The notes under the pieces are model-generated. The model had not been told where the DNA came from. It did no database searches and saw only the letters and a list, made by a program, of their open reading frames with translations. Below, one piece after another: positions 1,555 to 57,752 of a stretch of 64,000 nucleotides of DNA (positions within the stretch are counted from its first letter, which is position 1; the number at the start of each line of letters is the position of its first letter). A program made the translations under genes and the position numbers. The DNA comes from Mesostigma viride (taxonomy: Eukaryota > Streptophyta > Mesostigmatophyceae > Mesostigmatales > Mesostigmataceae), in the NCBI GenBank assembly GCA_009746045.1, contig RPFO01000078.1:1459107-1523106 (forward strand). The letters run 5' to 3'.

Positions 1555-8061
<6,507 letters not shown>

Positions 8062-22079: not shown

Positions 22080-25000
22080 TCACATTGTGGAAATGTCAGC
22101 AATATACGGCGGGAACACGGACGCCAGCTGCTCCCGGGACAGCGCGCCCCACTTGCACATGCCATCTGCGACGAGCAGCAAATTGACCACCTCGGGGATG
22201 GTGTCCACCCCCCCCGTGCGGCGGTACTCGGCGCTCATGCCCTGCGCGGTCGCCAGCACATGGACCGCGATGTGTTGGCGGATCAGGTGCAGCAGCGTCC
22301 ACACGTGCTTGCCATGGAACTGACGCAAGAGGGTGATAACGCCGAGCTGCAGGGGGCAAAAGTCCAGCGCGTCACGCTTGGACTTATGCACGAGGGACGC
22401 CAGGTGGCGGTCGTACACGAACCGAGGCAGCTGTGTGAGCAGGAACACGAAGAGCAGCAAGGGGAGGTCGTCCATCGATGAGGGGGTGATGTAGAGCGTG
22501 GCACAGATATTGCTGGCCCCCGCACGACCCATGTGCACCACCCACTCGTGCATCTGCGCCACCACATGCTCTCGAGCGGGAGATAGCGAGGCGGGACATG
22601 CCCCGCCCCCAGGACCCTGCAAACACACTGCAGCATGCCCTGCAGGCGCAGACGTGTCCTCGATGCCCCGTCCACCAGCTGCCAATCCAGCATTGAAGCC
22701 ACCACCTGCCGCGTGGGTGCTGGGGTTGCTGGCCCCTTGACCCCGCCGCAGCCCTGTTTGCGCTTGTGCGCCCGTGTCCAGGGATGTTTCGCGAAGCAAT
22801 CTGCGGATGTCAGCCATCAGCGCATCATCGGTGGCGTGCGCAGCCGATGCCAGCAGGCTTGTGTCGTGCTTGCGGCGCGCGGCCAGCTCCATGGACAGGT
22901 GGCGCCGGAGCAGCTGTCCCTGGCCCACGCGGACAAGGGCATCCAGCAGGGTGGCCCAGGACTTGGACAACGACGCGCAGATCTGCGAGGTAAGGAGAAG
23001 AGGAGGAGGTGACGAAAGAAAACATAGAGGAAAGTCTGTTAGACAACCCAGCGCCCCCAGGATCATTGCTAAGTGCTGTCCAGCGCGCACGTGGGGCTTC
23101 CTTGCAGTACTTGAGAAGCTTGCCCCCCCCGTGCCCACAGAGGCACCTGAGTGGCCATACCCATAAGCGTGCGCACACGCACAAGCATGGCAAAGGGGTC
23201 AACACATGCCTACATGAGAATGGTGTAGCACCCTCCTCGGTGCAAGACATTTCACGTGAGCATGCTCACAGGAAAGCAAACATCCGTTGGGCAGTAAGTA
23301 AACGGGTGCCTGTTTGTCAGCGCCATCCACCTCGGTGTACAGCACGGGCGAGGCGTGGTTGTTCATCCTGCATGACAAGTGGGTCGACGGGGCCTATAGG
23401 ACAGCGCCACCCACCTCGGTGTACAGCGCGGGCGAGGCGTCAGGCATCCCCGTCAGCGCGTGCAGCGAATTGCGAAGGGAACGCAGCGTCTCCCGTGTTT
23501 CCGGGTGCTTCACCTGCAACGGGCATAAGATGGAAAGGAGCAGCCGACAAGGTGGAAAGGAGCAGCCGACAAGGTGGAAAGGAGCAGCCGACAAGATGGA
23601 AAGGGACAGCCGACAAGATGGAAAGGGGCAGCCGACAAGGTGGAAAGGAGCAACCGACAAGGTGGAAAGGAGCAGCCGACAAGGTGGAATGGAGCAGCCG
23701 ACAAGATGGAAACGAGCAGCCGACAAGATGGAAAGGGACAGCCGACAAGATGGAAAGGGGCAGCCGACAAGATGGAAAGGAGCAGCCGACAAGGTGGAAA
23801 GGAGCAGCCGACAAGATGGAAAGGAGCAGCCGACAAGATGGAAAGGAGCAGCCGACAAGGTGGAAAGGAGCAGCCGACAAGATGGAAAGGGGCAGCCGGC
23901 AAGATGGAAAGGAGCAGCCGACAAGGTGGAAAGGAGCAGCCGACAAGATGGAAAGGAGCAGCCGACAAGATGGAAAGGAGCAGCCGACTAGGTGGAAAGG
24001 AGCAGCCGACAAGATGGAAAGGGGCAGCCGACAAGATGGAAAGGAGCAGCCGACAAGATGGAAAGGAGCAGCCGACTAGGTGGAAAGGAGCAGCCGACAA
24101 GATGGAAAGGGGCAGCCGACAAGATGGAAAGGAGCAGCCGACAAGATGGAAAGGAGCAGCCGACAAGATGGAAAGGAGCAGCCGACAAGGTTTCCCGCGG
24201 CGTGCGTGCGGTCGTGTTGTGGGTGGGGGGACACGGTTAGACTTTTCATTTACTGAGCCGCCACCCCTTTTTCGGTCGGCCCATACTTACGGTTCATCCA
24301 TTTACCCCTTACGGTTCATCCATCCACCCCTCACTCACGGTTCATCCATCCACCCCTCACTCACGGTTCATCCATTTACCCCTTACGGTTCATCCATTTA
24401 CCCCTCACTCACGGTTCATCCATTTACCCCTTACGGTTCATCCATTCACCCCTCACGGTTCATCCATTCGCCCCTTCACAGGTGCAAAACCAGTGGTCAA
24501 AACACATGAATTAATAGTTTTTCTGCATGTTGTGGGCGTAGTTATTATTTGGCCAGATTTGCTAGATGTACAAAGCATTGCTGTGGGCATAACACATGAG
24601 ACACGCGGGGAGGTCTATTAGTAATCATCCCCTGTCTGCGGCATATCACCTCCCATCGGCCGGATGCTGGAAGGAAGCGGTGGCAGAGGACTAGGATGAA
24701 TCCACACGGCCAGCCTAAAGATAACCCTTTCAAAGTTGAGAAAAGTCCTTGCTCATTAAGAAGGCTTTAATATATTATTCATGCATTCGATTTCGTGTAT
24801 TATTGCTTTCTCATATAGTATAGATGGATTTGATGAAAAAACAAAATTGTGCATAAAATTGCAAAGGTGTCACGTGGAGCCCACAGCGGAATGATTTTGC
24901 TCCCACTGATGCAAACACAGCAAGCAAGCAAGCAAACTGAGCAGGGCAAGCAAACTGGCCTGCAAGCCAAGACCACCCTACGTGCCTTGGCTTGCAGGCC

Positions 25001-28000
25001 GGCCACCAACCATCCATCAAGCAAATGCATGGGACCAGCAAACAAGCCATCCATCAAGCCAGCACAAACTGCCTTTGCTTGCAGTCGGCCACCCGACCAT
25101 CCATCAAGCGATTATGTTCGCCCGTTCACCTACTTTGGCTTGCAGGTCGGCCACCGCGACGTTCAGGTCCTGTACGATGCGAAAGCAGAGGATGCGGTCG
25201 AGTCCTGCAAGGCCAACCTCGCAGATGCTGCCACCCGCCAACAGCAGCGCACCGACAAAATGCAGTCAACCCAAGGACAAAACAAAGAAACATAAATTCC
25301 GCCCAGAAACACATCGATCCAGCAAAGAGCCAGATGGGACCTGCCCAGAAAGACCCCGTGTGGCCGAGAAAGACCCCATGCAGCCGAGAAAGACAGCATG
25401 CACACAGCCAGGAGGAAATCGGAGAGGAGAAAACGCGACCATGGGAGGAATCAGACAGCGGCATATGGCGGCCCGCTGAGGCCAGTAAAATAAAGCAGGC
25501 AGAACATGCAAGTGTGCGAGGGAGCTGGGCTATGGTGGAGAGAACAAAAGGGACGTAAGACGAGGGATAAGAAAACGGAGCAAACAGAGAAGGACGGAGG
25601 GAAGTAGACTGAGGGGGAGAGAGAGGCTGCCTTTCTGAGGCACGGCTGCTGCAGCCAGGGGAGATCGGACACGCAGGGCTGGAAAAAAGAAATTAAAAAA
25701 AGGCCAAATAAGGAAGTGGATAAATCCAGGAACTCTCTAACCTCACCAGAGAAAGCAACATGAGCGACCAAAGGAGCTTAAGTACAGTCTAGCTAGTGGT
25801 CGCTGATACGATCGCTGGTGAGCTGGGGTGTAGGAACCACAGGGGGGCCTCCGTGGAGCTCTGTCGCTTGCTGCAGACGAGACCAGTAGAACCCATGCGT
25901 GAGCAGAACAAGCCATGAAGCACAACGCGCCTCTGACGGCGTTGTGTGTCCTGACAACTTGACAAACCAGTATCCATGGTGCGGCAAACTATGGAATAAT
26001 ACCATTGTTTGATTATTCCAGCTGCTTGAAGAAAGCGGGTAGACATGCCCTCACCCTGTAATGCATGGATTTGGAGGGTAAAATGCCCCAGTGTCCGTGC
26101 AAATATGTGCCGTTGGCCTTGTCCTTTACATGTCCTGCTACAAGTATCGTGACTTACCAGTCAGCCAGCTGCGCAAATGTGCGTATGCCCACGATCTCGA
26201 ACCCTTCCTTGTTGAACCTGCGCTTTCAACAGGAGCATGGGAAGGCAGAACCAAAAGCAAAGAACAGTGAAGAAAGGGCACAAAGCCGAGATTCGACGAT
26301 CCACGGTTTTAACATTCACATTGGCCTGCGCGCAGCATGAGCATTCCACAGAAACAAGAACAACAACAGGAGCAGAGAAAATAAAAACAGTGTGCAGAAG
26401 CGCATACTTAATAGTTGCCAGGCGCCTATAAGTGCCATACAAAGTGCCATTGCCATGGCATCATTGGCATGCGACTCCCAGATTCTTCACCGTGGACTTC
26501 CTGCTTTATCCAAGGTTTTCGGCAGCCAACGAGGACCCTGACCGCTAGCAGGTTTCAAGTAGTCAAGGGGATGACCTCAACATTGATGGCAGCTTCGTCA
26601 ATCGAAACCTTGGTCATATTCACTGGCTTTTGAGAGCCGTATAGACAGCATATAGGCAGCATAGCACGTGCACTCGTGACCCGTGCTGATGCCTATTTGT
26701 CAAACATCACGCCAAACAACATGACCAGCTGGCTATGTGACCAAGGTACACGGGCACATAGCCAGGTTGGCACAGTAATCCAGCAGCCAACTCTGCCGTT
26801 CACTTGAGTTGTGCACGAGTACTATCCGCTTGCCTTTCTCACATATTTTGATTGCAATGCCCGTGCTGGACAAGAAGAATGGCTACAAACAAAGCCTTCA
26901 CACCAGCACAGCGACTTCGAGTATCATACCACATTACCTCCACGGCAACCACTATGTCCCATAACCACTAGCAGTTCCTACAGGGCGCACTCTCCCCATG
27001 CTGGTGCTGCAGCTGCCACTCACCATCCGCTGAGTGGGCTTATGTACATCGCGGTGGCCGGGTGGGTGCGCCGCAGCAGCTCATTCAGCACCCGCCCTGG
27101 AGAGTGAAGCATTTGAGGAGAGACACATAAAGCATGGCACATAATGGTCAAGCAGGTGATAGGACCCTGCACGTTGTGCAGCAAAAGTTAGAACCTGGCA
27201 ATGGATAACAACCAGCTGGCTAATGAGGTCACTAAAAGACACATGAGGAGCTTGCACAGGAGATACATTGGAGATTGCACAGGATTGATGTCAGCAAGAT
27301 GGTGCGCCACAAAAAGAAAGCACACAATCTTTGACACCCTTAAAAACACTTCCTGAACGTCCTTAGAATACTAAACCTCGGACGGAGAACACTAACCCCA
27401 ACATCCTTGCATCCTGCCCATTAGTAGCAAGTGCGCCAAGGATAACGGAAGGACAAAAAGCGCCAAGGATGACTGTCTAGGCTACATGGCGGTCAACAAA
27501 TTTTGTTTATCCCCCGAGGTCCAATGCCCATGCCTAGAGAAACAACAACTCGCATCGCGAGCAAGTGCAGGCCACATCGGTAAAATAACAACGTGACATT
27601 GGAGGGTCAGTGTGGCCGGCAGATGCGGGGGCTTACCCAGGAAGTTTGGGTGTGCCGGCTCCGGCACTATCGGCACAGCGGCACTCTGGTGGTGACTGCT
27701 GCTGGCCTCGGTGGCGGCACGCACGAATGCGTTGCACTCCTGCGCATTCAAGGGGGGGGCACATCCACAGAAGACAAAAAAATGGGAAACGTCAAGAAAA
27801 GTCTGCCCATACATGCCATCGTGGTGCCGATATGAATATTATATTTATTGCATTATGATTCGCGGACAGGACGCTGATTGAGATCTTGCTCGGACGATCC
27901 CAGACATGCAGGCCTCTCGAAAGGGGGGGTTAAAAAGAGGGGTTTCAAACGGGGGGTTTCGCGGCTGCAGCAGGCAGGTCCGAAGGTAATAACCGGCGGA

Positions 28001-31000
28001 CACCGATTTTGCTTGGCGCACAAATGCTACGCACGCCGATAGTACGCCGATCAACAGCAAAAAGATGATAGTAACGAGAGTAATGCTATACTTATGGTGG
28101 TAACAAAAAGATGATAGTAACGATAGTAATGTTATATTTATGGTGGTAACAAAAAGATGATAGTAACAACAGTAATGTTGCACTTATGGTGGTAACAAAA
28201 AGACGATAGTAACAACAGTAATGTTATACTTATGGTGGTAACAAAAAGATGATAGTGGGAAAGGGCCACTGGCGCGGCCTTGCACCTAAGTATTGCGACA
28301 AATGATTTATAATGTACATGAAGGACTAGGAATGATGATAGCCGTAAGGAAACATCACTCGGTCACCTGCTCGACGATAACAGCAGCACACGTGCAAAGA
28401 GCCATTGTTTGCTCCCCAGCTCCACGTGCACCGCGACGACAGAAGTAACTCGGCAAGAACAGCACTTTTAGCAACAACTGCAGATTATGAGGTGGCGTCA
28501 CTTGTTTGCTCGACCTGCTCCGCGTGCAGTGCGATGAGATCATCCACAGCAACAACAGCAACAACAACAACCAACGATGATGACAAAATAAACAACCGAC
28601 ACGGTTGATCCCCCACCTGCTCCGCGTGAAGCGCGATGACGCGCGCCAGCTCCTGGTGCCACATCGCCAGGGTGTCCATCTTGACATAATCCTGGCAACA
28701 CAACGCGTAGGGAAGCACGCGGCCAAGGCAGGTGACCGTAAGCTTTGTACTTTTACATGGGTATTTGGCAGACAAAGTGCACATCAAGAGGAGCCATTAT
28801 TTACTAATGCGCATCGTACAGCTGTGCTGGAACGCTTCGGCGGCGATACCTTTGGCTGAACATCAGTTGCATAGATGCCACATGCGTGCATGCCACACGT
28901 TGGCGCCCCCTACTTGGTGGATGCCAACACCAATGCATGCCATGAAAGCGGCAGCAGCAAGACCGAGAGGTTGGTAACAACTGCAAGGCTGCCATCACCT
29001 TTTCTCGTAAAACCTGTTTACCAATGTGCTCATACTACTTTTGATGCTACATATTCTTTCCACTGTACAAACGCATACAGTAAAAACTGCTCAGTCAAGT
29101 CTGTACCCTCAAACAACCATGGATTCTTTAAAGAAACGCGTCCAATGAAGAAAGAAGGTGCCGGCTTGCCAGCAGCCTCCCAGGCTTCCCAGCAACCCAT
29201 AATAACATGCATCTGCAACGTTCCATTCGTCTTGTGGGAGTCTCTACCGTACGGCACGCACACACGTGATCTATTGTGGGCTAGATCAACCCCCTCAGGA
29301 CCCACAAAAGCTACGACGTGCACAGTAATAAACCTGGAGGTTTGTTTGCAGCGTATTGCTGCCAAATGTTACAAGCACAAATTGAAATGTGAATCATCAA
29401 GCCATATGGGGCATCGTCCCGAAACTTGGCCAGGCCTTCCATGCATGGAATCCCTATCGATTTGTGTGCGCCACGTGCGATTGTAAAACTCCGCCACGGG
29501 CGGGCATTCGGCCATCGAAACACCTCGCTTGATTAATGGAAAAAAGAAATATACACGGCAACTGTAGCACCTGATACGCATTACCCCAGCGCGCAACAAA
29601 GGCGTGAGCAGCCACCTACCTGGATGCACGCACTAGCCTTGCACAACAGGCATTGGCATTAGCGTCAGGCCTAAACCTCAAACTTAAAACCCCAAACCCT
29701 AACCCTCCCCCCTTTCAACCCCGAACAATAACCCCTAACCATTAAACTCTAGCCACCCACCGTAGCACCCACCTGGATGGACGCGAAGGTCTTGCGGAAA
29801 CCCCCAAGTGTGACAGACAGCTTCTTGAGCCGAGGCTCGAACTCATCTTCCGATTTGCCTGCAGGGGGGAGGCCGCGCGGGACAGGAAAGGCCAGCCATG
29901 CTTAGCCAGTGTTGGCCAACCGACAATTTGGTACGTGATGAGGTACACCGCGAGACAGAGATGTAAGGAAACGTGAGGCGCATGTCCCTCACATGGAAGA
30001 TGCGGGAATTTAGATATAGAAAGCTGTTGCCGTTTCTGATCACGTGCCCCGCCCATCACATTACTAGGGCAAGTAAAATGGTTTGCTTGGGGCGGCGACG
30101 CTATGACATCATGCCGGCGGAAGCAAACGCATGATTACAAAAAATCTCACAAATCATAACGGCTGAGCTAGCTTTCATCCCAAAATGTTACCGCCCACCG
30201 AGACTATCGGTGGCCTCAGGCCACCACGCCACATTTGCTGTGGGTTCTTACAAAAATGCAGAATCGTCTGCCTGGGACCTTGGCTGATTAGAAGGATCTA
30301 AAGAAAGAAACGCCAGTCCTTTCTTGTAGACCATGCCAAGGCTTAAGTACCTCCCCTCTCTTTCAAGCCCTTATGGCTTCGAACGACAACCACTTCAAAA
30401 TGGTCCTGTGCCAACTTCACAGCCCCTTTACCTTGTGGGAAGTGCAGCGAGCCGGACAGTGCGGAGGAGATGTGGTGCGACAGGTGGCGGCGGATGCCTT
30501 CCTCAAGCAGCAGCTGGGGGTCCTGTGGGCGACACGTCGTCAGGGGCATGGCGGTGGATGGGACGGGTGGCAGCAGCACAAGGCGGAGTGAGAAGTGAAA
30601 ATGTGGTAGGGGGGGGCGTACGGCAAGATTTACAACCGCAGGATCGCAAGCGTAAAAGGCATACTGCAAAAACGGCAAGCGGGTGAGATGCATCCCTTCT
30701 CCTCACATCCCTGTTTAAAAGTGCAAGTTGCTGTTTAAAGGTGCAAAGTGGATCAACCTCTGCCACGGTTTCCCTAACAAGTGAGAAGATGCAGCAGCCA
30801 AGAAGGTTGGCTGTTGCGAATGACGGCAGCTAGTATAATGACGCACTCCACATCAGCCGTTCCGGAAGGAAAGCCGTCTTCTCGCGAGGATGCGACACCT
30901 GGTGGGAAAGGCCAGGTGGGGGCGAAAAAATGCGACCAGGAGGTGCCGCCACTGTGATGGAACCCCCATGCTGGGTTTTGCATGGGTTGTAGTGGGTTCA

Positions 31001-34000
31001 GGAGGGCGTGCTCTGCGCCAAATGCCCCGATGCTGTGTCGCCACAACCGCTGCGACGTCACGACCGCAGGGTGGTAGACAACTACCCGCGTACCGTGCTA
31101 TAGGCAACCAAGCAGCGCACGTGGGCACCAAGGCTAAGTACATCACCATCAAGGCGCCATGCACCATCCACAAAGCAGCACGCGAGATCAGCAGTTTGTG
31201 GTGAATGCATCGTTCTACATGCACCATCTGGAAGGCTATCTTAGCCATCATCCCCATCGCGCCCCCACCAGCGATCATGCCCATCACAACACGCATCGTC
31301 ATCAGGGTCAAACGACATCCTCAACGCGACACCAAACCGCATCACCCAACCGCACACACTCACCAGCTCAATCATGCCCAGGAAGGTCTTCTCCATCGCC
31401 CAGATGCCCTGCACATGCACCATTGCGTTCATCATGCCGAGGAGAAAGGGACGTGAAGGTGATGCAGCCGCCACATCACAGCAAAGGGTCATCAACACCG
31501 CCGTGTCAGCGTATTGTACACGTAGTAGTGTGTGTTTGCATGCAAGAGTGTACGTGAATTGCACCCAGGTATCATGGCATCATGCCAACAAATGCAAAAC
31601 GTGGCCAAGTGCTCAAGTGCTTGGGCGGAGCCTTGAAAGTGGTTGAGCCGAGAGGGCAAACAAACAACAGGGCCTTGAAAAGAGGTTGAGCCGAGATAGC
31701 AAACGAGCAACAGGGCCCCCTGTCCAGGGCCTCCAGCATGCTCGTTGGCCGGTGTCTCTAGTCCGATGCTCTTCGCCCACACATACTTCTGTGATCAACA
31801 CGCTGCAAAACGTGCCCAGGAGACATGCCTGCGAGTTCATTATTGGCAGGGCAGCCTGTCTCCAGCAACACATAAGCTGTATGTGCTTACTTGGGATGTC
31901 AGCAGCCATGCAAGCTCACATGCACTACTAGCATCGATAAAATTTTCACAAGTTTTTGCAAGCCAGGATGGGGCCTTACCTGGGTGAAGGCAGCGATCTG
32001 CTGCAGCGCGCGTGCCAGGGCATGGCGCTCCTGCGACTGCACCCGCAGCGTACAAACAAGACGAAGCGAAGGTTTGCATACAAGTGGCGGAGTTTAAGGC
32101 AGAACAAAGCACATCAACAAGGTCAGACCGTTCTGGCCATGAAGATAACCCGGGTCATTTCTTTTATGCATAAACAGGCACAAACATGCTCTATGGGCGC
32201 GCGCAGTAGCCCAACCGGCACTGTACCGTACGTGCACCCTGTTCACAGGCACAAGCGGGAGCTGTGTTGGCACCGTACGGTGTTCATTGGCAGGAAAGCA
32301 CAGGATGGAAAAGGAGGGCATGGCAGTGCCAAAAGATCCCAGCCCTGACCCCAATCACACGCAGGCTCCCCTCCTCCGCACGTCCCCCCCCCTCCCCCCC
32401 CCGCCCACAACAACAAGCTACCCAACCCAGAACACTACCCACACAGGACTGAGCGTGCACAAATGCACGGATGAATACCGCAGACACACAGACACCCTCT
32501 CTAAAAGCGTGCCAAACAGTGAACTGTGGACGTAACTGCCACCGTCCAAATGTTGCAGATGCCACACCCTGACAAGGCTGCGTTATCAGCACCAACGCGC
32601 ACGCGAATGCTGCACGCGAATCATCACGATGAACCCCAAACGCTGTTCCACGGTCGAATTCCAACGACACAAGGGCTCACTGTACGCCCATACTGAAATG
32701 CAATTGCTTGAATAAGGCATATGCTCCGATGTTGCAGGAAGCTAGCACGAAACTGGTGCACAGATTATAAAGGAATAAAGGAACAAGGACTCGCCAGCAA
32801 ACCGTATCCCACCACCGCCATGATGTCAGGTACGGATACTCTGCAGGACTGCAGCTCCGCTTCAAACCCTACGCCTGGGTTATCCCCTCACCTTGCCAAT
32901 CCCCACATCAACCATGCCAGAGTATACCGCCTACCTATCGAGGCACCAGGCCTCGCGCACTACGGCACCATCTCTCACACACTAGCACACGGCCCCTCAC
33001 CATCGCAAACCGCTTCACGCCCGCCTTGTCTCGACCTGCTGTCGATCGACGGCCCTAGCCCCCCTGCATTCCCTCACCGTCGCCCACTAGCACACGCCCC
33101 CTCACCATCGCAAACCGCTTCGTGGCCCTCACCATCACTCACACACTGGCGCACGCCCCCCTCACCATCACAAACTGCTTCACATCCGACTTGTCCATGC
33201 GTGTGGGCAGCTCCTTGAGGTGCTGCGTCTGCAACACAATCAGCTCCTGCACGATGCCAAACATGTTCACCTGCGCAGGGGGGCCACAGGAAGTGGATGC
33301 AATGCAGCAAGGTTAAGCGTGTGAGCACGATGCCAAACATGTTCAACTGCCGAGCGAGTAGTCGACAAATGGGATCAGGTTTGGAGTACAGGGTTGATGA
33401 TAGCATTAGTGAGCAGGAATCAAACGTTTTCAACTGCTGCGATCAAACATCTTTGTTTCAACTGCAGAGTGGGCAACCGTGGGACAAGCTTGCACTAGAG
33501 CAAGGGTAGGTATGCGACTGAAAAAGAACTTGTCGATCTCCGGGGCGATGGTGGGCAAACGCAGGCAGAAGCAGGAGGTGAAAGGGTGTGACTGGTTCAA
33601 GGGTGCAAATGCAGTGCATGTGTCAGCAGCAGATTACTTTGGCAATGATAATGCCAGGCATGCCCATGCGCATGACACGAAAGTACTTACTTACTTTTAC
33701 TTATAATGCCGGGACGTTAGACACGGCAGAGGACGCAGTTGAGCGCCGCCTTGCATGCCACTGGAGACAAAGTGAGTACCAACGCCATGTTTTCTGATGC
33801 AGCCACCGGTGCGAATGAGGTGCCGTACTAATTAGATGCCTGTACTGATGAGGTGACGGCACTAATGAGGTGCCTGCACTAATAAGGTGCATATGCTTGT
33901 GCAGTGCCTGCACTGATGAGGTGCCTGTACTAGTGGAGTGCCTGCACTTATGAGGCGCCTGCACTACTGAGGCGCATGTACGGATGAGGTTCCTGTACCC

Positions 34001-37000
34001 CTGCGATGCTTGTTGTGTTTAAAACTCCACAGTAATGCTGGCCTGCCCCTCATAACCTTGGTGTGCGTTCATATCACGCCTTACAAGCAATCCCAACTAG
34101 CAAAGCCATCACGACATCTAAGAAGCCTCAACCAAATAGCGTCCAATAGCCCTTTCTTACAGCATCACTACACCATCCCTGCAGCAGCTAAAAAAGGCAT
34201 ACAACTATTCCATTCCTTGACTGCGCCGTTGTCAACCTCACCAGCACTGTTTCCAGGACCACCCCACCATTCCTCACTTCCAGCATCCCCCCAGCATCCC
34301 TTCAGCAAATGAAGCACGCTTACCTGCACCACCACGCCACAACGAGGCATCGGTGTTGCATGCCTGAGCAGCCAAGTGTCTAACCGGAACCACCTCCCAG
34401 TAAAACCGAACCAAACCATTCCTTCAGCATATAACACGAGCTTATCAGCACCACCTCCAGCTCCAATAAACCTGTTTCATGCCTGAGCGCTTGTGGGTGC
34501 TACCGGCACCACCTCCAACATCACCACACGGATTTCTTGACAGCTGCGTAGGCTGCCTTACCGGCACCACTTCCAGCGTCGCCCGCGCAAAGGACGCCAG
34601 CTCGTGCGACATGAACTCGGTGGCGGCGTAGAGGTCAGGGCTGGGCACACAGTATTTGTGGTACGGCCAAAACAAGAAGAGCATGGGTGGCGGAAAAGAG
34701 AGTACGTAACGCAGCTGCAGAGATGCAGCAGAGATACAGAAATTGATGACGATGCTGGTAAGACTCACACGCAGGCATCAGTATACAAGCATACAGGGAA
34801 GGAACGTAGTGCATAAGAATGAAGGTATTAAAACAACATGGCGAGGGTGGTAGCCCCCCATGAAGGCCGCGTATCATGATTGGTTGATGCCCAGCTGGTC
34901 TAGTATTGTCGCAAGAGGAAACTCGTAAGAGTCTACATATCAATCTTAACGACTATAGTAGTATTGATGTTTCAATATCAATAGTAATAAGACAGTGAAA
35001 TAGTTTGGTACAATACCGGATTCGAACACAGGACCTCTTGCATGATTTCAACATCAATGGAATGAAGACAGCGGTATCCATCACATGCTGGCATCAACCA
35101 CTCTTTGTTCACTTCCCCTTTCACTACCTCTGAAACGCATGTCGCAAGGTACGCTGCCAGGCCCGCGCCCGCTGCTTCATACGTTACGATAGCGCCAATC
35201 GCTGTAGGGGTAGAAGTCATCGAGGATGAAGACAAGTGTGCATGGCGTCCCCCCGACTACACTCATCCCTTGGTCCACACTAGCACGCGTCACATCCAGC
35301 GACTCATCCGGTCATCCCTGCAAACTACCCCAGACAGCACTCCTGCGCCTTACGGTGCCTCCCAAGGGGCAGTGCCTGCCCCATGGTGCACGTGCCGTGG
35401 CTCACTCCAGTACCTATTCTATTGATAGTTGCATGTATTTGAAGCATGTACTTGTAGCTTGTATCTGTAGCATGTGTTTGAATCATGTGTTTGAATCATG
35501 CGTTTGAATCATGTACTTGAAGCATGTGCTTGTAGCATGTACTTGAAGCTTGGTTTGCTGTACTGCTTGCCACATGCGCACCTGCTGCACTGGCTGAGCC
35601 GCAGCAACGGCATCTCCATCACAGACCGCAACTTGGTGAAGAGGCAGCGCAGCTTGAGCAGGGAGCGGGGGTCTTTCCGCACACGCGCGTGGAGGCGGGG
35701 GATGTGGCCCCGAGCAATGTTCCAGAAATAGCCGCAGTCCGACACCTGTGTGGGCAGGTGAACCAGAACCAGGTTAGACTACAGGCGGCACCAGCAGCTC
35801 GCAGATGGACACTTAAGGGAACCCATGAGGCTGGGATGCATTCCCATGAATTCTGATCAGACACTCCGCAAAGGTGAAAACCTTTGCGTTCAGTGCCGGG
35901 CCGCGGAAAACGCGGAAAACGCGATCTACAAATGAATCCGACCTGAATCGAACTGGGGACCTCTCGCACCAAATTTTGCTGACAGCAGGACGGACGTCTC
36001 CGGTTACCATGGCATCGCCAACTTACACCTACAGTCATCCGCAAAATTTCTCCTGTCCGGGGAGTGATGCAAGCCTTTCGGATTTGGTACTAGATAAATC
36101 ACTCGAGATCTGTGTGTATGAATATTTCATTGCAATGGCAGCTCACGCCTCCCTCTAAATTCTTCGATGTAAGACGCACGACATTGCAAAAGTAGTGCTG
36201 ATGCACCAAGGAAAGGGCCGTCGCCGCTCCCTTACCCGCAAAGCTACCCCCTATACCCCACAGGAGTGGAACCCAAAACTGTGGCGCGTGACTTTCTGAC
36301 AACGATATGCACTCATGACCACACACACACCACATCGGCACCATCGCTATTGGCTTCCAGGTACATGAACATACTTAGCCATGCAGTTACCAGCTACATG
36401 TACGCCATGGTTCCGGACGCATGATTCTGATACCCAACGGCCTGTTCGCGAGTCCGGACGCATGATCAGAGCCACAGAATCGGCCAGCGAGCACGTACCA
36501 CCGCTGCCATCCAGCGCCTACCCTCTACATGGGGTCTCCTTGCGAAGCCGTAGATGGATGCGCGCTACCCAGGCCAGAAGCACCCCAGATGGGAGGTGAG
36601 GCATACATAGGGGCACAGCTGGATTAAATTCTTCAAACTACTTACTTGAGGGCATACTTATGGGCGTTGTGGGCTCAAGCTACGTTCATGTTTCGCGATT
36701 CTCCAGATTTCTGGCCTGTGCTGGTCGTCTCATGGACACTTAAATCCAATTCTTTAACTACATGCTGGACGGCAGCACGGGGCCAGCGCGGTGCGCCCTG
36801 TAAAAAGCATACTACCTCTGACGCCTTGTAAACGTGCATTACTTGGGGGGCAACCAGCCACCACAGCCAGCAACCTCAGCGCTCCATGCGACGCGGCCGG
36901 ATCCCGCAGAAGCGGACCTAGGGTCCTGTAAACGACAAGACTAAACGACTAGCAAGCCCCACGCCGCCAGCCAGCGACACAAAGGCTCCCGGCAGCACGC

Positions 37001-40000
37001 AGCCACAATGCCAATCAACCGCGAACATGCACCACCGCCGCCATCATACTTGACAAATAGATCCACAACGTGATGACAGCCACAGCATCAGCCTGCGAGC
37101 ACATACCACCGCCACCGTGGTGAGTATGGCCGGTGACAGCTCCAGCAATAGCATGAGCCGCGTGACCTGGTGCCGTGTCTCCACCAGGTGGGCCTTGGCC
37201 TGCAGCTGCGACGCCAGCTGGTGAAGCTGCAAGACGTCACTCAGCGCCGCCAGCACTTTCTCCAGCGTGCGTTTGCTGCGGCGGCTGCTGCCGGTAATGC
37301 TGGCGGTGGTAGAGGAGGAGGATCGGCCAGAGGCGTCCCCAAGATCCAGCGCATCCAGCTGGCTGGCAATTCGATAGAACCATTCCTGTGGCGGATGCAA
37401 GATGGGAGCAATGCGTGGGGCATATACAGGGTAAGAACAAGGCATGCGGGCAGGTATAGGACACAAGCAAGGCATAGATACCCAAACAGCCAACTATATA
37501 TGACTAGTACTATGTACTACTACATACTACTATATACCCGGCCGATGGTGGCTAGCAGCAGCACCCAGCGGTACCTTGTGGCGGGAAGCGGCTCCATGAT
37601 CCACGTTCCGTACCTGTGACGACACGCAGCGGCTCTGGCCAGTGGCATTATGCGACAAAAAAGGAGGCCCAGGCCCCGGGGCCCTGAGCAAGTAGGCCCA
37701 GGGTATATGGTGAAAGGTTGAAATAGCGGGGGTGGTGGACGACAGAGGGTGACATGACCAATATCCCTTCAATGTAGATAGCGGGGGTGGTGGACGACAG
37801 AGGGTGACATGACCAATATCCCTTCAATGTAGATAGCGGGGGTGGTGGACGACAGAGGGTGACATGACCAATATCCCTTCAATGTAGATAGCGGGGGTGG
37901 TGGACGACAGAGGGTGACATGACCAATATCCCTTCAATGTAGATAGCGGGGGTGGTGGACGACAGAGGGTGACATGACCAATATCCCTTCAATGTAGATA
38001 GCGGGGGTGGTGGACGACAGAGGGTGACATGACCAATATCCCTTCAATGTAGATAGCGGGGGTGGTGGACGACAGAGGGTGACATGACCAATATCCCTTC
38101 AATGTAGATAGCGGGGGTGGTGGACGACAGAGGGTGACATGACCAATATCCCTTCAATGTAGATAGCGGGGGTGGTGGACGACAGAGGGTGACATGACCA
38201 ATATCCCTTCAATGTAGATAGCGGGGGTGGTGGACGACAGAGGGTGACATGACCAATATCCCTTCAATGTAGATAGCGGGGGTGGTGGACGACAGAGGGT
38301 GACATGACCAATATCCCTTCAATGTAGATAGCGGGGGTGGTGGACGACAGAGGGTGACATGACCAATATCCCTTCAATGTAGATAGCGGGGGTGGTGGAC
38401 GACAGAGGGTGACATGACCAATATCCCTTCAATGTAGATAGCGGGGGTGGTGGACGACAGAGGGTGACATGACCAATATCCCTTCAATGTAGATAGCGGG
38501 GGTGGTGGACGACAGAGGGTGACATGACCAATATCCCTTCAATGTAGTCTGAGAACCGATAAAAACACAAAATAGATCATTAATATTAAGCAATCATCAT
38601 GCATTAAAATGAAAATTTTATTTTTATTTTTATTTTTTTTTTATTTTATTTGGGGGGGGGGGGGGGGGGGGGGGGAGGGGCATCGGCGCACTCGCCAGAC
38701 CGCACTTGTTAGGGAGAGCGTGCATGCAGTGCATTGGACATGCATGCACTGCACCATGAGTTGTTTTGGATGGAGCAGGCGGGGCAATGAGGCAAGCGAG
38801 CCACACGACTACAAGCGAAGAAAAATGCTGTCTCATGATGAGAAAAGGGGCCGGGAGTTTATAGCAATGTTGTCCTACAAAGAGAAGGGGCTGGGAGTTT
38901 ATATCAAAACAGTCTCATGAAAAGGAAAGGCCTTGGGAGTCTATGACAACGTGGTCTCATAAAAAGAAAATGGCTTATAGCTCATGTCAGTATTTGTGTT
39001 CCGACATGGATACTCAAGTTTAGGCAGCGGGAGTAAAATAGTCTAATACCACCTGGGTGCTGCCACCTGCAAGACTTTTTGTTTCCCTGAGGATTGACAA
39101 TCAGGCCGACAAACAGATAGTGACCATGAAGCCAGCAACTGCGTGCCACGCCACATCCATCCAGGTCCCACCGCACCTGTAAACTTGCGTCCTTGACGTC
39201 TCTTGCCAGAGACAGCACTCGCGACCCTGCATAGAAATCACCGAGCTCCCGAAGGGCCAACACGGCCCTCGCCCGGCTCTCCCTCATCTTGGCCGCTTGC
39301 GACCCGAGCAGGCCGCCGTACATCTGCTTCACCTGGAGCTCGAGCGCTGCGGTGTCCAGCATAAGGGTCAGGGAGGCCTCGGCGCGCACGTCCGCCACCG
39401 CGACCGACACGGAGCATTTCGCGAGCAGCTCTTGGAGCTTCTTGTTGGTGGTCGTGCGGTGCAGCAGCAGCCATCGCAGCGTGATGTTGCACTCGCGGAT
39501 GCAGTCCAGCACCTGCAGGGGGGCGTATGGCAGTAACCATGCGGGATGTTCGGTGCGTGTCATGGAGCGTGCCTGTAAACACCATGCACTCCACGTGCAC
39601 GCGAGAATGCCCATGCATCGGGTCACGAGAATGCCGTCCAGACCAGAACCTGACCGGTGAGGGGTCAGCAATACAACCATGGCACAGATAGAGCGGCGTA
39701 CGATATTGAGCTTGTGCACATCATGCATGGCGCTTGAGCACACCATGCATGGCGCTTGAGCACACACCATGCATGGCGCTTGAGGTGCGCGACCGTCCAG
39801 CAACTGCGGGCCAGTGACCAAGGTACCGTTTGATGTGCAACCCATGACATAACACAAGTGGACATTGCACTAGTACCCCTGTGAAATGGGAAATACACGG
39901 GTCAACGCCTACCTGAGCAACGCGCCCCACCAGAAACTCCTCACTCCTATCGACACAACAAGAATGGCTGGTCCTGCGCCACATTTTTCAGCAGAGGCTC

Positions 40001-42811
40001 CTCACATCTACCCATACCCGCATCCTCCCATCTACCCATACCCGCATCCTGCGCTGATCAATGGCTGTACCTGCCCCACATTCTCCAGCAGAAACTCCTC
40101 GCTCAGCACGCCCTCCTTTAAGAACCCCGCCACATCCCGCTGCAACACTTCCAGGCGCGCCGTGTGCTGCTCGTTTAGCCGCTTTACCGACGCGGGCTGG
40201 ATGGTCCCTGCCAGGGCGGCCCGCGTGGCGGCCCAGGGTTGCCACAGCTCACTCAGGTCGATGGTGAAGCCCAGGTAGAGGTGGACAACCCAGTTGTCGG
40301 CATAGTGGCGCGTCACCAGCTCGCGCATGAGGGCGTGGTCGGAGTGCATGGCCTGGGTGGGATCCCAGCAGTTGGCGTGGTGGGCGAGCACAGCCAAGCA
40401 AAATGTTGGGGGTGGGCGAGCACAGCCAGGAAACATAACAGAGAAGCTGTAGTGACAAGCATAACAGAGAAGATGTGGTGGTGTCCGAGAGTGTGGTCTG
40501 TTCAGAGTAACACCCATAAGCAGGTGATCGCAGGTGGAGGGTGCGATTACAGTGCACACAATCAGTCAACTGATAAGGCCGGTTCCCAAAAAGAAAACCA
40601 AAGAGGAGAGGATGTTACCAGGGCATTGTCCGAGCGTGTCTCCTGGGCGAAGTGGAGGGCAATATGCTCGGTAGAGATGCAGGGGACGCTTACGATGGGC
40701 ACGGTGTCATGCATGGCGATAGGCACGGTGTCATGCATGGCGATTACGATAGGAACGATCAGAGACCACTGATAGGCACCCTCGCAACTGGGAGGACAGA
40801 AAACAGAAAACATAACGAACGAAACGAGGTGTACGAGCGCATTGCCAGCACGACAAACAGATGAACGGCGTGCAGAGAGGCGAAGGCTATGACACTGTGC
40901 CCCCCGCTCACCTCGGGCAAGAAGAGCAGCAACACAAACAGGCAGGACGCCTGCGGGGCCAGCGCGGCGCTCCGGTGCTCGTGTTTCGGGTACAGCCGCG
41001 TCTGACAATATAAATCGTCCGACCGGAGCCGCTCCACCAGCGGCTGAACGACGCTGACCGGGAGAGCAAACCGACCAATCAAAGTGTCCGCCCAGTTCAC
41101 CCGCGCGGCGTCCCGGTCCACTATATCCCCCCCCGCCCATAGTGACCCCCCCAAGAAGGACATCAGTATCCCCCCCCCTCGCGCGGCACTACTACCCGCC
41201 ACCCCTGCCCATCCCTTGCTTGCCCGCAAGCTACCCGCAGAATTCCCCAGAATCGGCTGGGATTCCCGACACAGCCGGTACACCGCATCAAAGGTCGTTA
41301 TGCTGGCAGCCGGCTCTCTGCCACGGTGCCGGTAGTGGGCCACCGCGACGCGCTCCCTCAGTTCGCCCGGGAGGCATAATTCTGTCAGCAGCAGCAGTGT
41401 CCCCAGCAGGTGCACGGCTTCTACTAGCAGCTGCTTGCCTTCCACGCTCAGCAGCAGGCCATCTAAGGTGTGGCCCAGGTAAACACCGTCCTGCGGGTTG
41501 CAAGAATTCAGGTTTCGGACAAACAGCCAGTTATAAAACTAGCAGACGCCAGTCAATCAGAAAAATCCCACAATCTAGACCTATATCGCTGGAGCCCAAC
41601 CACCGCAAATCAACGCAAAGGGGTTGCGTTTTGTACAAATAGGCTGCAAGCCCAATGCCATCCCCCACATACCGTAGTGGCCATAATCACTTTGCTATAC
41701 CACCATACGGTACCATACAGTACTAGCATATAGCCATGGTTCCTGTTGCTGACATACCGTGGTGGTCATAATCACTTTGCTATACCACCACTTTGCGAAT
41801 CGACCTCACAAACTGCTTTTGATGGGCTTCATTTTGGGTTGCAAAGTTCAAAAGTTACCGCGCCGCGCCGCACAGCCCGTCTAGCCAGCGAACGCGTCGG
41901 CGCGCCACAACTTTCGCGATATTATTAAATGAGACAACTATTACTATTTCATGAAGTATATTATTACCAGTGCTACCTAATAGCCCAATTGATCAATCAA
42001 ATCAACTATTAGGTAGCCTACCTAATATATTACCCGGGTAATCATTAACTGATAAGAAGGTACAAGCCACTGACCAAGTGACCATAAACAAGTCGATCGG
42101 CTCGCAAACCTGAAACTTTGCCTTCATTTGGGGTCGCAAACTATAAATTTCACCTTGTTTTTGGGGCACAAAGTAGTTTGTCGCAAAGCGATTATGACCA
42201 CTACAGTAGGTATACCGCACGCTCGGTAAACCCCAACCCCTTCCACCCACCTTAATGTGCTCCATATACTGTCATTAGCTTGTGCTCACACGGCCTCACG
42301 GCACCCACCTTCAGGCCCTGCACGCCGTCTCATAGCCGGGCATGCCCACGCTGAGGTCCTGCCCATCAAGGCAGGTGACTGCGCCACCTCCTCCCCGTTC
42401 CACCCCACCTCTCACCCACGCGCAGGTGCTGCCTGCGCTCACACTACCGTGAGCTCATACTGCCACACGGCACCCACCTTGAGGTCCTGCAAGAACGCCA
42501 GCAGGCCCGTGTGGTACTCCACGATGCTGCCACACGCGGCGTACAGAGGCTCCACCACGGTCGCCAGCAGCGGACCGTTTGCGAACTCGTCATCCAACCG
42601 TCGCAGCTCCGCGTCCTGATCTATGCGAGCCTCGGTGCCGTCCACGTCATCAAAGTAGCTGGCAGGTTGTTGTTGGTGGTGGTGAGGTGGTGGTGGTGGT
42701 GGTGGTGGCGGTGGTGGTGGCGGTGGCGGTGGTGGTGGCGGTGGCGGTGGCGGTGGCGGTGGCGGTGGCGGTGGCGGTGGCGGTGGCGGTGGCGGTGGCG
42801 GTGGCGGTGGC

Positions 42812-42843
<32 letters not shown>

Positions 42844-43576
42844 TGGTGGCGGTGGCGGTGGCGGCGGGGGTGGTGGTGGTGGTGGTGGTGGTGGTGGTGG
42901 TGGTGGTGGTGGTGGTGGTGGTGGTGGTGGTGGTGGTGGTGGTGGTGGTGGTGGTGGTGGTGGTGGTGGTGGTGGTGGTGGTGGTGGTGGTGGTGGTGGT
43001 GGTGGTGGTGGTGGTGGTGGTGGTGGTGGTGGTGGTGGTGGTGGTGGTGGTGGTGGTGGTGGTCGGTGCAGGTTGAAGGGGGTGCAGGTTGCACAGGTAA
43101 CAGGTTTATAAGAAGGTGGTGGTGGTGGTGGTGGTGGTGGTGGTGGTGAAAGAGGGGGGGGGGGGGGGGGGGGGAAGGGGGGGGGGGGGGCGCCGTTGGC
43201 GGTGCATGCCTAGGCCGTTCGCACAGAAATAGGCGTCAACTTGATTTGCGTCCCAAAACCTGGATGCCCCAAGGGGAGACTAGGTACAAAAAAGAGTGCG
43301 ACAATCCTGGCAGATGTACGAGCAATGGCAACAGCATCCCTTGACATGCTGGTATGCCTGCGTGGTGCATTCATGACGGCAAGATGACATAATTGAAACA
43401 CCAAAATGGATAGATGAAGCACACCTGAAACCGAAGAGGATCGATTGGTAAGTGCCAGAAAGGAAGTCGTGAGGCACGGTATCGCATAGTCGCAAGAGGT
43501 GTGTCACGAGGTAGCTGCCTCGACTAGCCAAGCCTAGAAGGGCAACCCCCACGCCTTGGTCAAGAATATCACTCAT
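22080..43576 (-). CDS. WASHC5: WASH complex subunit strumpellin, 20 exons
   Basis: Exons (minus strand): 43425-43576, 42478-42658, 40912-41490, 40071-40352, 39177-39512, 37107-37385, 35582-35745, 34562-34640, 33166-33270, 31980-32036, 31364-31408, 30432-30522, 29773-29858, 28617-28691, 27637-27739, 27024-27096, 26158-26217, 25134-25227, 23415-23513, 22080-22982. Every junction is GT-AG, phases agree, and the total is 3,843 nt (1,280 residues; animal strumpellin is about 1,160). The start is the ATG of MSDILDQGV. Landmarks that align with animal strumpellin include LASRGSYLVTHLLRL, ERLRSDDLY, YADNWVVHLYLGF, RECNITLRWLLLH, LQTQHLKELPTRMDK, LLLEEGIRRHL, GLDRILCFRIVQDL and LGVITLLRQFH. The subunit belongs to the pentameric WASH complex, which activates Arp2/3 on endosomes. 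The last exon carries an extra Gly/Ala-rich stretch of about 70 residues (near 22560-22800). Introns are full of tandem repeats. Confidence 0.93.
23316..23414 (-). repeat. Duplicated exon-19 end and donor in WASHC5 intron 19
   Basis: A block at 23316-23352 repeats the last 30 or so bases of exon 19 plus its donor (CCACCTCGGTGTACAGC core, GGGCGAGGCGT) with about three mismatches. It lies about 84 bp downstream in the direction of transcription. Confidence 0.8.
23526..24190. repeat. 22-bp minisatellite, about 30 copies
   Basis: Unit ATGGAAAGGAGCAGCCGACA plus AG, with variants (GGTGG, GGGGC). The array fills the start of WASHC5 intron 18, next to the acceptor of exon 19. The unit has no stops in most frames, so long spurious open frames run along both strands. 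Confidence 0.95.
24285..24480. repeat. GGTTCATCCAT tandem repeat
   Basis: Eight or so units of about 22-26 bp, each with CACGGTTCATCCATT(C)(T)ACCCC. They alternate short and long forms, in WASHC5 intron 18. Confidence 0.9.
24977..25133 (-). repeat. Exon-18 end/donor copies in WASHC5 intron 18
   Basis: The exon 18 terminus and donor (CACCTACTTTGGCTTGCAGG, 25128-25147) recur at 24977-25011 (CCTTGGCTTGCAGGCCGGCC) and at 25070-25096 (CTTTGCTTGCAGTCGGCC). The copies are interleaved with CATCCATCAAGC repeats. Confidence 0.8.
28058..28257. repeat. 46-bp minisatellite, about 4 copies
   Basis: Units of 46 bp beginning GATGATAGTAACGATAGTAA and containing TTATGGTGGTAACAAAAA. They lie in WASHC5 intron 14. 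Confidence 0.9.
28365..28616 (-). repeat. Exon-14 end/donor copies in WASHC5 intron 14
   Basis: The exon 14 end with its donor (CACCTGCTCCGCGTGAAGCG, from 28614) recurs at 28512-28538 with about 23 of 26 bases matching, at 28414-28440 with about 19 of 27, and partly at 28365. The nearest two intervals are close to 97-102 bp. Confidence 0.8.
29608..29642 (-). repeat. Exon-13 end/donor copy in WASHC5 intron 13
   Basis: About 35 bp (CCACCTACCTGGATGCACGC core) repeats the exon 13 terminus and donor at 29761-29797 (CACCCACCTGGATGGACGCG). It lies about 153 bp downstream in the transcript. Confidence 0.7.
29660..29730. repeat. Degenerate telomere-like CCCTAAA patch
   Basis: A short C/A-rich run with AAACCCCAAACCCTAACCCT on the plus strand, in WASHC5 intron 13. 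It is too short and irregular to be a telomere and is best read as an interstitial patch. Confidence 0.5.
32992..33165 (-). repeat. Exon-9 end/donor copies in WASHC5 intron 9
   Basis: The exon 9 terminus and donor (CCCTCACCATCACAAACTGC, from 33159) recur at 32992-33030 with about 32 of 38 bases matching and extending well into exon sequence. They recur again at 33101-33127, with shorter versions at 33069 and 33126. Confidence 0.85.
33808..34012. repeat. GATGAGGTGCCTGCACT tandem repeat
   Basis: Ten or so units of roughly 18-20 bp alternating TGCCTGTACT and TGCCTGCACT with (A)TGAGGTGC, in WASHC5 intron 8. Confidence 0.85.
34261..34561 (-). repeat. Array of exon-8 end/donor copies in WASHC5 intron 8
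   Basis: The exon 8 terminus and donor (TACCGGCACCACTTCCAGCG, 34559-34578) recur at 34501, 34443, 34382 and 34321 with decreasing similarity, at an even spacing of 58-61 bp. Flanking TTCAGCA and CACGCTTA/CGAGCTTA motifs repeat with them, so whole units of about 60 bp were duplicated. Confidence 0.85.
34998..35095 (-). mobile_element. tRNA-derived SINE head
   Basis: On the minus strand a B-box-like GTGTTCGAATCC follows CAAGAGGTCC, the variable-loop to T-arm order of a tRNA. A GATGCCAGCATGTGATGG segment upstream is A-box-like. Stems do not pair well enough for a working tRNA, so a tRNA-derived SINE is the better reading. It lies in WASHC5 intron 7. Confidence 0.5.
35430..35560. repeat. Short TTGAA/TGTAGCATGT repeats
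   Basis: About ten units of 12-18 bp alternating GCATGT, ACTTGTAGC and TTTGAATCATG, directly downstream of exon 7 in the transcript. Confidence 0.75.
35838..36020 (-). mobile_element. tRNA-derived SINE with body
   Basis: The minus strand reads from an A-box-like TTGGCGATGCCATGG through GAGAGGTCC to a B-box-like CAGTTCGATTC. It continues into a body with CGCGTTTTCCGCGG and CACCTTTGCGG. The body matches the separate fragment at 20102-20178 over about 70 bp, showing a dispersed family. It lies in WASHC5 intron 6. Confidence 0.6.
36482..37106 (-). repeat. Exon-6 end/donor copies in WASHC5 intron 6
   Basis: The exon 6 terminus and donor (GCGAGCACATACCACCGCCA, 37097-37116) recur at 36487-36511 (GCGAGCACGTACCACCGCTG) and at 37022-37042 (GCGAACATGCACCACCGCCG). 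The stretch between contains no gene. Confidence 0.75.
37717..38548. repeat. 55-bp minisatellite, 15 near-identical copies
   Basis: Unit of 55 bp starting AGATAGCGGGGGTGGTGGAC and ending CCCTTCAATGT. Copies are essentially identical, which implies very recent expansion or homogenisation. The array sits inside WASHC5 intron 5. A run of about 25 G lies shortly after it (38651-38676). Confidence 0.97.
39902..40070 (-). repeat. Exon-4 end/donor copies in WASHC5 intron 4
   Basis: The exon 4 end and donor (GTACCTGCCCCACATTCTCC then AGCAGAAACTCCTCGCTC) recur at 39972-40000 (TCCTGCGCCACATTTTTCAG) and partly at 39912-39940 (CACCAGAAACTCCTCACTCC). A CTACCCATACCCGCATCCT duplication lies between. Confidence 0.75.
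41660..42215. mobile_element. Fold-back (inverted-repeat) element in WASHC5 intron 2
   Basis: A TGGTCATAATCACTTTGC block, itself tandemly duplicated at 41678 and 41765, is matched in inverted orientation near 42180-42212. Internal arms ACCTAATAG/CTATTAGGT lie near 41975 and 42008. No coding region is seen. It resembles a MITE or fold-back element. Confidence 0.5.
42245..42477 (-). repeat. Exon-2 end/donor copies in WASHC5 intron 2
   Basis: The exon 2 terminus and donor (GGCACCCACCTTGAGGTCCT, from 42469) recur at 42300 (GGCACCCACCTTCAGGCCCT), 42346 (CCCACGCTGAGGTCCTGC) and 42414, and partly at 42245. Spacing is about 45-68 bp. Confidence 0.8.
42670..43190. repeat. (GGT)n/(GGTGGC)n array with poly-G
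   Basis: GGT, GGTGGC and again GGT triplets fill 42670-43062, with a further GGT block and poly-G runs to 43190. The array occupies most of WASHC5 intron 1. Frames full of Trp, Val or His are artefacts. Confidence 0.97.
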
Positions 43577-55300: not shown

Positions 55301-55900
55301 ATCAGATTATCTAGTACACTGTAGAAACGGCGTTGCAAGAGTTTGCTGGCTAGTTTGTAAGGGACTGTGAGCATGCGAATGGGTCTATAATTTTTCCAAC
55401 TTGTTTTATCCCCTTTTTTGTGTAAGAGGATGAGGATTGTTTGCGACCACTGGCCCACAACAGTTTCGGTGTTCCAGATTTCCAGGATGCATTGGTATAG
55501 ATCCCTGCCTATGAGGGGCCAGAACGTTTTAAAAAACTCTACTGGAAGGCCATCTGCACCAGGTGCGCTACCGGTTTTGAGATGTTGGAGTGCTAGAGAT
55601 GTTTCTTCCATAGTGGGGCTGGCGTCTAGTAGAGCTTGTTGTGACGGAGAGAGGCGGTGGGGAATTGCATCGAGGATTTTTTGTGTGGCTGTATTTGCAG
55701 AGGGGTCGGGTTCTGTTCGGAACAGGGTGGAGAAAAAAGCATGTCCAGATTGTAGGATGTCTTGGGGGGTGGTATGGGTGCCAGTCTCGTCTGTAATTTC
55801 TGTGATGGTGGTTTGTGAGCGCGGGGGTGGGATAAAGCGCGGGGGTTCTTCCGAAAATTGGCTCCGCCGTAGAGTTTCAACAAGCAAGTTGCAAACACCC
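52382..55900 (-). mobile_element. L1-like LINE with reverse transcriptase and zf-RVT, frameshifted
   Basis: Minus-strand segments in three frames make up one ORF. 54661-55923 carries the reverse transcriptase (GSAPGADGLPVEFF, FWDFEKAFDRI, SLPQGDCLSPLLF, TAYADDTTN). About 54290-54700 carries GYHLLHNCPIGRTAEGRLLE and the thumb region. 52661-54274 carries the C-terminus with YEYTAEWGY and a zinc-knuckle zf-RVT motif (CTNPTETVEHRFLWC). Frameshifts near 54680 and 54280 inactivate it. The upstream AP-endonuclease is lost by 5' truncation near 55850. A shorter relative lies at 9600-10990. Confidence 0.88.
55844..55868. repeat. Right arm of 25-bp inverted repeat around the LINE
   Basis: Perfect inverted match to 52357-52381, next to the apparent 5' truncation of the LINE. 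Confidence 0.85.
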
Positions 55901-55962
55901 ACGTTACTTGATACGCTCCGCATACGCCACGGACTGGGCGGATGCCCAGAGCTCGTTGTTCA

Positions 55963-57752
<1,790 letters not shown>

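Follow-up and report, generated by a model that had tools for sequence, protein, structure and literature searches.

Introduction

Intron growth is commonly ascribed to transposons. Minisatellites also occur in introns, as head-to-tail units, while introner elements place nearly identical intron sequence at numerous unrelated loci. Natural insertions in rice were reportedly studied by Vaughn and Bennetzen in 2014. In the human genome tandem duplications are the commonest short (<100 bp) insertions, and small tandem duplications arise at breaks through CST/Pol alpha-primase fill-in and end joining, according to the available part of a source that also cites plant work (PMC8355091). In the potato RdRp gene, a tandem duplication across an intron-exon boundary, involving the first intron and second exon, created a new intron (PMC4974935), and intron gain by tandem duplication has been described (PMC3443670). 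Here we report a related pattern in the green alga Mesostigma viride, whose introns have a mean length of 1142 bp with repeats making up 30.1% of intron space (PMC6947507). The window, by which we mean the whole stretch of 64,000 nucleotides analysed (assembly GCA_009746045.1, contig RPFO01000078.1, positions 1,459,107 to 1,523,106), contains the gene for WASHC5 (strumpellin). In many of its introns, the end of the preceding exon recurs together with its 5' splice site (donor) as decayed local copies.

Copies of exon ends in WASHC5

WASHC5 was modelled with 20 exons and 19 introns. The translation of the model is identical to an annotated protein retrieved by protein search (P0001, eukprot 'jgi/Mesvir1/26507/Mv16165-RA.1') and matches the Strumpellin family of Pfam (Table 1). 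Copies were scored with reference 40-mers, composed at each donor of the last 30 exon and first 10 intron bases and at each acceptor of the mirror image, aligned both to the body of the intron they adjoin and to the bodies of all other introns (match +1, mismatch -1, gap -2/-1). A copy was called at a score of at least 15, a threshold fixed on the same data. All junctions, here and below, derive from annotated or inferred proteins.

Eight of the 19 WASHC5 donors reach this score in their own intron, against 0/342 non-self comparisons (permutation, 0/20000), and one of the 19 acceptors does so, against 2/342 (permutation, 727/20000). Intron 6 is borderline in the 40-mer test, but its score rises to 17 with a longer intron part and the region from -6 to +38 aligns over 37/44 bases to a copy 608 bp off; it is counted as real. 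Of the eleven introns in which the initial annotation had seen donor-side copies, nine therefore hold, with copies all within 14 bases of the positions it gave and with the regular spacing it described in intron 8 (Table 1), but introns 10 and 11, with scores of 11 and 13, lie within the non-self range and are at chance level. Its statement that the copies are always on the donor side does not survive, since intron 8 also contains a near-perfect copy of its acceptor and the start of exon 9, the only WASHC5 acceptor-side copy at this threshold, and others are found in further genes (see below). Nor does similarity generally fall with distance from the exon, as had been suggested: when adjacent copies were compared in nine introns, the one nearer the exon was the closer match five times and the farther four times, with one tie.

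Table 1. WASHC5 and the copies of exon edges in its introns (positions in the window).
Feature	Position	Strand	True donor (first intron base)	Copies and evidence
WASHC5 (strumpellin) gene	22080..43576	-		translation 1280/1280 residues identical to P0001; PF10266, E 5e-294
Intron 2, copies of exon 2 end and donor	42244..42362	-	42477	42362-42339, 42322-42299, 42264-42244; local alignments, own score 20
Intron 4, two donor-side copies	39910..40003	-	40070	40003-39964, 39946-39910; own score 26
Intron 6, donor-side copies	36489..37042	-	37106	37042-37025, 36504-36489 (second reaches +38); own score 14, borderline
Intron 8, four donor-side copies	34319..34525	-	34561	34525-34501, 34461-34441, 34397-34377, 34332-34319; spacing 58-61 bp
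Intron 8, copy of acceptor and exon 9 start	33325..33350	-		25/26 bases; true acceptor after 33271
Intron 9, donor-side copies	32993..33138	-	33165	33138-33126, 33121-33097, 33030-32993; own score 28
Intron 13, single donor-side copy	29613..29642	-	29772	local alignment and own score
Intron 14, two donor-side copies	28416..28537	-	28616	28537-28513, 28440-28416; local alignment and own score
Intron 18, two donor-side copies	24980..25097	-	25133	25097-25073, 25007-24980; local alignment and own score
Intron 19, single donor-side copy	23321..23356	-	23414	exon part 25/26 identical; own score 32

Two WASHC5 introns also hold arrays. In intron 5 (37723-38547) a 55-bp unit is repeated 15 times, all perfect according to Tandem Repeats Finder (TRF), which may mean that the array arose very recently or that the assembly is at fault. 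In intron 18 (23527-24189) some 30 copies of a 22-bp unit lie directly 5' of exon 19.

Neighbouring genes and other contigs

The pattern extends beyond WASHC5. The core sample comprised 38 introns on the one contig, from WASHC5, BBS2 and a centrosomal, CENPJ/CPAP-like gene; donor copies are present in 18 and acceptor copies in five, with non-self rates of 0.43% and 0.36%. None of 20000 permutations matched either figure (0/20000 for donors, 0/20000 for acceptors), so the acceptor copies are real as well. By gene, donor and acceptor copies number 8/19 and 1/19 in WASHC5, 7/13 and 4/13 in BBS2, and 3/6 and 0/6 in the CENPJ/CPAP-like gene. Restriction to the 32 protein-verified introns leaves 15 donor and five acceptor copies (p=0.014), and exon-only 30-mers at thresholds of 12, 13, 14 and 15 give donor/acceptor counts of 16/5, 15/5, 15/3 and 11/3 of 38 (p 0.002-0.036). 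The comparison of exon ends with non-adjacent introns that had been proposed as a check comes out on the side of local copying. The near-absence of exon-edge matches outside the intron concerned (non-self rate 0.43%) tends to speak against introner elements.

Control comparisons were uniformly negative. Among core introns, exon ends match the upstream intron in 0/30 cases and exon starts the downstream intron in 0/30; inverted matches within the own intron number 0/38 at the donor and 0/38 at the acceptor side; and references taken from exon bodies match introns in 0/22 and 0/22 cases. A repeat-masked sliding profile over 30 introns locates the signal: at the donor itself, a pair of 20-base bins match in 46% and 44% of windows, and the share falls to 5% at -40 and 0% at -60 on the exon side. 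On the intron side it is 20% between +20 and +60 and for the most part 0-13% further in. The acceptor-side peak is 16%, and matches in other introns are at 0-1.7%. The same picture emerges for WASHC5 by itself without masking.

Introns of dynein heavy-chain genes elsewhere in the genome behave in the same way. Donor copies are seen in 6/16 and acceptor copies in 3/16, on five of nine contigs, with non-self rates of 0.59% and 0.12% of 848 comparisons. One donor match (L034, score 16) ranks below a non-self match that scores 21 and probably lies in a dynein paralogue. In another intron (L033, 1331-1988) both edges are copied, the acceptor edge seemingly recurring twice upstream. With the core and dynein samples pooled, six of the ten sampled contigs carry copies, and these affect 24/54 donors against 8/54 acceptors (p=0.0014); the two sides are not equally affected. 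The echo of exon end and donor first noted in WASHC5 is, in short, a real and more widespread phenomenon, although the original description of it is confirmed only in part.

Flanking sequence of 200 kb and 40 kb was used for the neighbouring genes. The 13 BBS2 introns reproduce the annotated protein P0014 exactly (711/711). Because neighbouring genes and fragments of retroelements were fused in the initial gene-finder output, counts were restricted to introns verified by protein or by two methods. For the CENPJ/CPAP-like gene, where a protein search had no annotated Mesostigma model among its three hits, the six introns kept are each supported by the gene finder together with one or more of three spliced alignments; one of them (113267-114518) is backed by one spliced alignment and interrupted in the other two, and many further aligned introns in poorly conserved parts were left out of the counts. 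Also outside all counts are four introns of a TMTC gene (donor scores 10, 16, 23 and 11; acceptor scores 9, 14, 11 and 10), two of an exostosin-like gene (donor 6 and 9; acceptor 7 and 12) and four more of the centrosomal gene (donor 12, 10, 20 and one too short; acceptor 7, 18 and 9). The dynein sample stems from a family search with PF12780, which gave 38 exon matches; ten short stretches on nine other contigs, chosen where dynein exons could be found, yielded 16 introns, placed by reading frame and GT-AG joins. One L034 intron, where a small exon is apparently missing, and two exon pairs of C2167 are omitted.

Donor copies show no significant association with intron phase (14/25 phase-0 introns against 1/7 others, Fisher p=0.088) or with intron length (medians 927 and 784.5, p=0.19). 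Phase-0 introns are in strong excess in both BBS2 (12/13; on L010, L011 and L022, 152228-166355 in window coordinates extended past the end of the window) and WASHC5 (13/19).

Structure of the copies

A laxer alignment, which has no null of its own and admits WASHC5 intron 11, detects homology crossing the junction in 22 of the 38 introns. In these the exon part of the copies is 82.2% identical (387/471) and the intron part 71.4% (792/1110). The corresponding divergences, 17.8% and 28.6%, are near the 1:2 ratio expected when one copy, as against both, is free to drift. Copy offsets are 26-207 bp, plus one at 608; several fall at 57-63 and at 97-108, clusters which may be due to chance.

The clearest array lies in dynein locus L032. 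Here identity is exact at a lag of 99 from -18 to +188, giving three exact 99-bp units, each made up of 18 bases from the exon end and 81 from the intron, with a decayed fourth copy behind them (3.3 copies). Young and old duplication events are thus seen at one locus. Head-to-tail arrangements of at least three units are otherwise evident, roughly, in WASHC5 intron 8, and many introns have one or two copies only. Under the laxer alignment, homology is as long as the offset, as plain tandem duplication demands, in 8/22 introns. The spacer between junction and copy is significantly similar to the sequence after the copy in 5/22 best copies, and in 3/12 of those with exon identity of at least 85%. 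This stricter test considers a single best copy and may overlook an array if a more distant unit is the better match, as happens in BBS2 intron 3. The tandem duplication across the junction proposed in the initial annotation is borne out as regards local, junction-spanning copies and the L032 array, but contiguity is shown for only a part of them; filler between copies would look the same as old intron sequence.

Duplication is not confined to junctions. Intron interiors hold local copies of their own, with 93/781 unmasked 40-mers matching elsewhere in their intron against 5/781 in a random other intron, and 304 kb of sequence, including arrays with units >25 bp, contain 8 to 23 times as many direct as inverted 10-mer repeats at lags of 20-300 bp. 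The exon edge is what makes the process visible.

Origin of the copies

Judging from the sequences, the introns of Mesostigma rather probably lengthen through recurrent short local duplications produced by error-prone break repair. Such duplications, of tens to ~200 bp, would be of the type left by faulty repair of nearby nicks or double-strand breaks. Where one straddled an exon/intron junction, the exon edge and splice site would be copied into the intron and would then decay neutrally. Since selection holds the exon original, a junction copy should be recognisable about twice as long as a wholly intronic duplicate. Many copies would involve more than clean tandem duplication, and filler between copies or templated insertion is likely too, given that the spacer is matched in only five of the 22 best copies. 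The analysis shows the copies themselves, their closeness to the junction, their bias to donors, local duplication throughout introns and one young contiguous array; the break-repair origin is what we infer. The original interpretation, of introns growing by repeated tandem duplication at the junction, is partly supported.

Several observations weigh against this account. The 1:2 divergence ratio comes from alignments chosen by score and without a null of their own. The same laxer alignment leaves homology shorter than the offset in 14/22 introns, and the spacer lacks a significant match in 17/22 best copies, including 9/12 of those with exon identity of at least 85%. The case of L029, with an exon part identical at 36/36 bases and an unmatched 52-bp spacer, is unlike a clean tandem duplication; filler at the break, copying of the junction segment further down, or gene conversion renewing the core would each produce it. 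Finally, copies are found at 47% of donor edges but at only 13% of acceptor edges and 12% of intron interior positions, so that donors exceed both beyond the roughly twofold gain in detection.

This last point deserves some attention. Exon constraint should about double detection at both edges and, with the interior at 12%, acceptors therefore lie at or below the neutral expectation and donors above it. We favour a combination of purging of acceptor duplications with some excess of mutation on the donor side. At a guess, a duplicated acceptor would put a competing AG upstream and be purged, while a duplicated donor would leave the true donor first. Intron starts are G-rich and G-skewed in introns both with and without copies, from which an R-loop origin would be possible.

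The donor bias might also be taken to mean that copying is directed to donors, an R-loop over the G-rich start, polymerase pausing or an RNA template favouring the exon end and donor as the source of insertions into the early intron. We regard this as unlikely. In its favour, besides the bias itself and the G skew, 17/18 best copies lie within the first 40% of the intron, and some young copies (L029, L033) stop 10-16 bases past the donor and lie at some distance from it. However, acceptor edges and interiors are copied too, the G skew is partly created by the copies themselves, closeness to the donor is equally given by tandem duplication, and L032 and others are contiguous arrays. It is similarly doubtful that the exon end and donor serve as preferred template for a copying linked to transcription or splicing, in which segments of ~35-70 bp with the donor at their centre would be placed time and again into the first few hundred intron bases and introns would grow outward from their donors.

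Purely neutral tandem duplication, by slippage or unequal exchange as in minisatellite growth, would be uniform along the gene, the donor-centred view arising from exon constraint and acceptor purging. The contiguous L032 array, the introns in which homology reaches the offset, the matched spacers, the near 1:2 divergence and the general excess of direct repeats all agree with it. The many unmatched spacers, nine of them among the 12 young copies, do not, although a single best copy was considered in the test and old spacers could have diverged beyond recognition; on balance we think it improbable that this process alone is responsible.

The initial annotation had noted that the duplications would leave reserve 5' splice sites. 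It is very unlikely that the copies are decoy or reserve sites maintained by selection. Some would indeed make strong donors, for example both copies in BBS2 intron 10, which read CAAG|GTGAGT. However, the GT is retained in 17/29 copies, about as predicted by a per-base identity of 0.8 (flanking identity is about 0.8-0.9), the offset is a multiple of three in 10/29, and several copied donors are destroyed. The copied donor is thus no better kept than its surroundings, and selected reserve donors were rejected as an explanation, as these figures fit decay without selection.

Scars of intron birth, through tandem duplication of an AGGT-bearing exon segment, are a still more remote prospect. The known mechanism likewise duplicates junction sequence and so shares with Mesostigma its raw material, duplicated splice-site sequence, but the layout it predicts (PMC3443670, in the text available) was looked for and found neither between upstream exon ends and the last 80 intron bases nor between downstream exon starts and the first 80 (0/38 and 0/38 at a score of at least 12), which contradicts it for young events, although very old ones would have decayed. 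Chance or assembly artefact, which may account for WASHC5 introns 10 and 11 and for the L034 donor match outscored by a non-self match, has next to no likelihood for the rest, being contradicted in the stronger cases by the non-self rate of 0.4%, the permutations and the spread over six of ten contigs, while the divergence of ~18% in the pooled exon part shows that the copies are not duplicated reads.

Other features of the window

Between 11200 and 19800, each strand has reverse-transcriptase-like entries in the list of open reading frames, and near-identical stretches occur there in opposite orientations. A trinucleotide tract of ~1.8 kb (55900-57800) is open in several frames. The minus strand at 1555-8079 carries a putative exostosin-like glycosyltransferase gene, named from its open reading frames alone.

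Comparison with known systems

If these copies have the origin favoured here, an intron's own flanks supply material for its growth, and the fixed exon allows each event to be recognised and roughly dated, leaving a rare visible record of intron growth in a green alga. Should the frequency of donor echoes, ~44% in our sample of 54, hold genome-wide, duplication rates at splice sites would become measurable and fitness differences between donor and acceptor duplications testable in Mesostigma. It could then also be asked how the spliceosome keeps to the first donor despite intact copies 60-200 bp further into the intron.

Recurrent copies of exon edges in introns were not found described in the titles and abstract openings of the open-licence papers that literature searches listed, nor are they mentioned in the available text of the M. 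viride genome paper (PMC6947507). The view, expressed in the initial annotation, that no described process has this signature nevertheless goes too far, as published duplications at breaks and across a junction come close, to the extent that the accessible parts of those papers describe them. Like the tandem duplications of break repair (PMC8355091), the Mesostigma copies are local and direct; they differ in forming a decayed, accumulated record at exon edges, with many unmatched spacers and a donor bias. With the potato RdRp case (PMC4974935) they share a tandem duplication straddling a junction. There, as far as the available text goes, a single event made an intron, whereas in Mesostigma there are many events, affecting about half of the sampled introns, mostly at the donor side and without the signature of intron birth. 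The resemblance to intronic minisatellites is seen best in the head-to-tail 99-bp units of L032, but in Mesostigma the units begin within the exon, and many loci show no more than one or two degenerate copies, which are often spaced.

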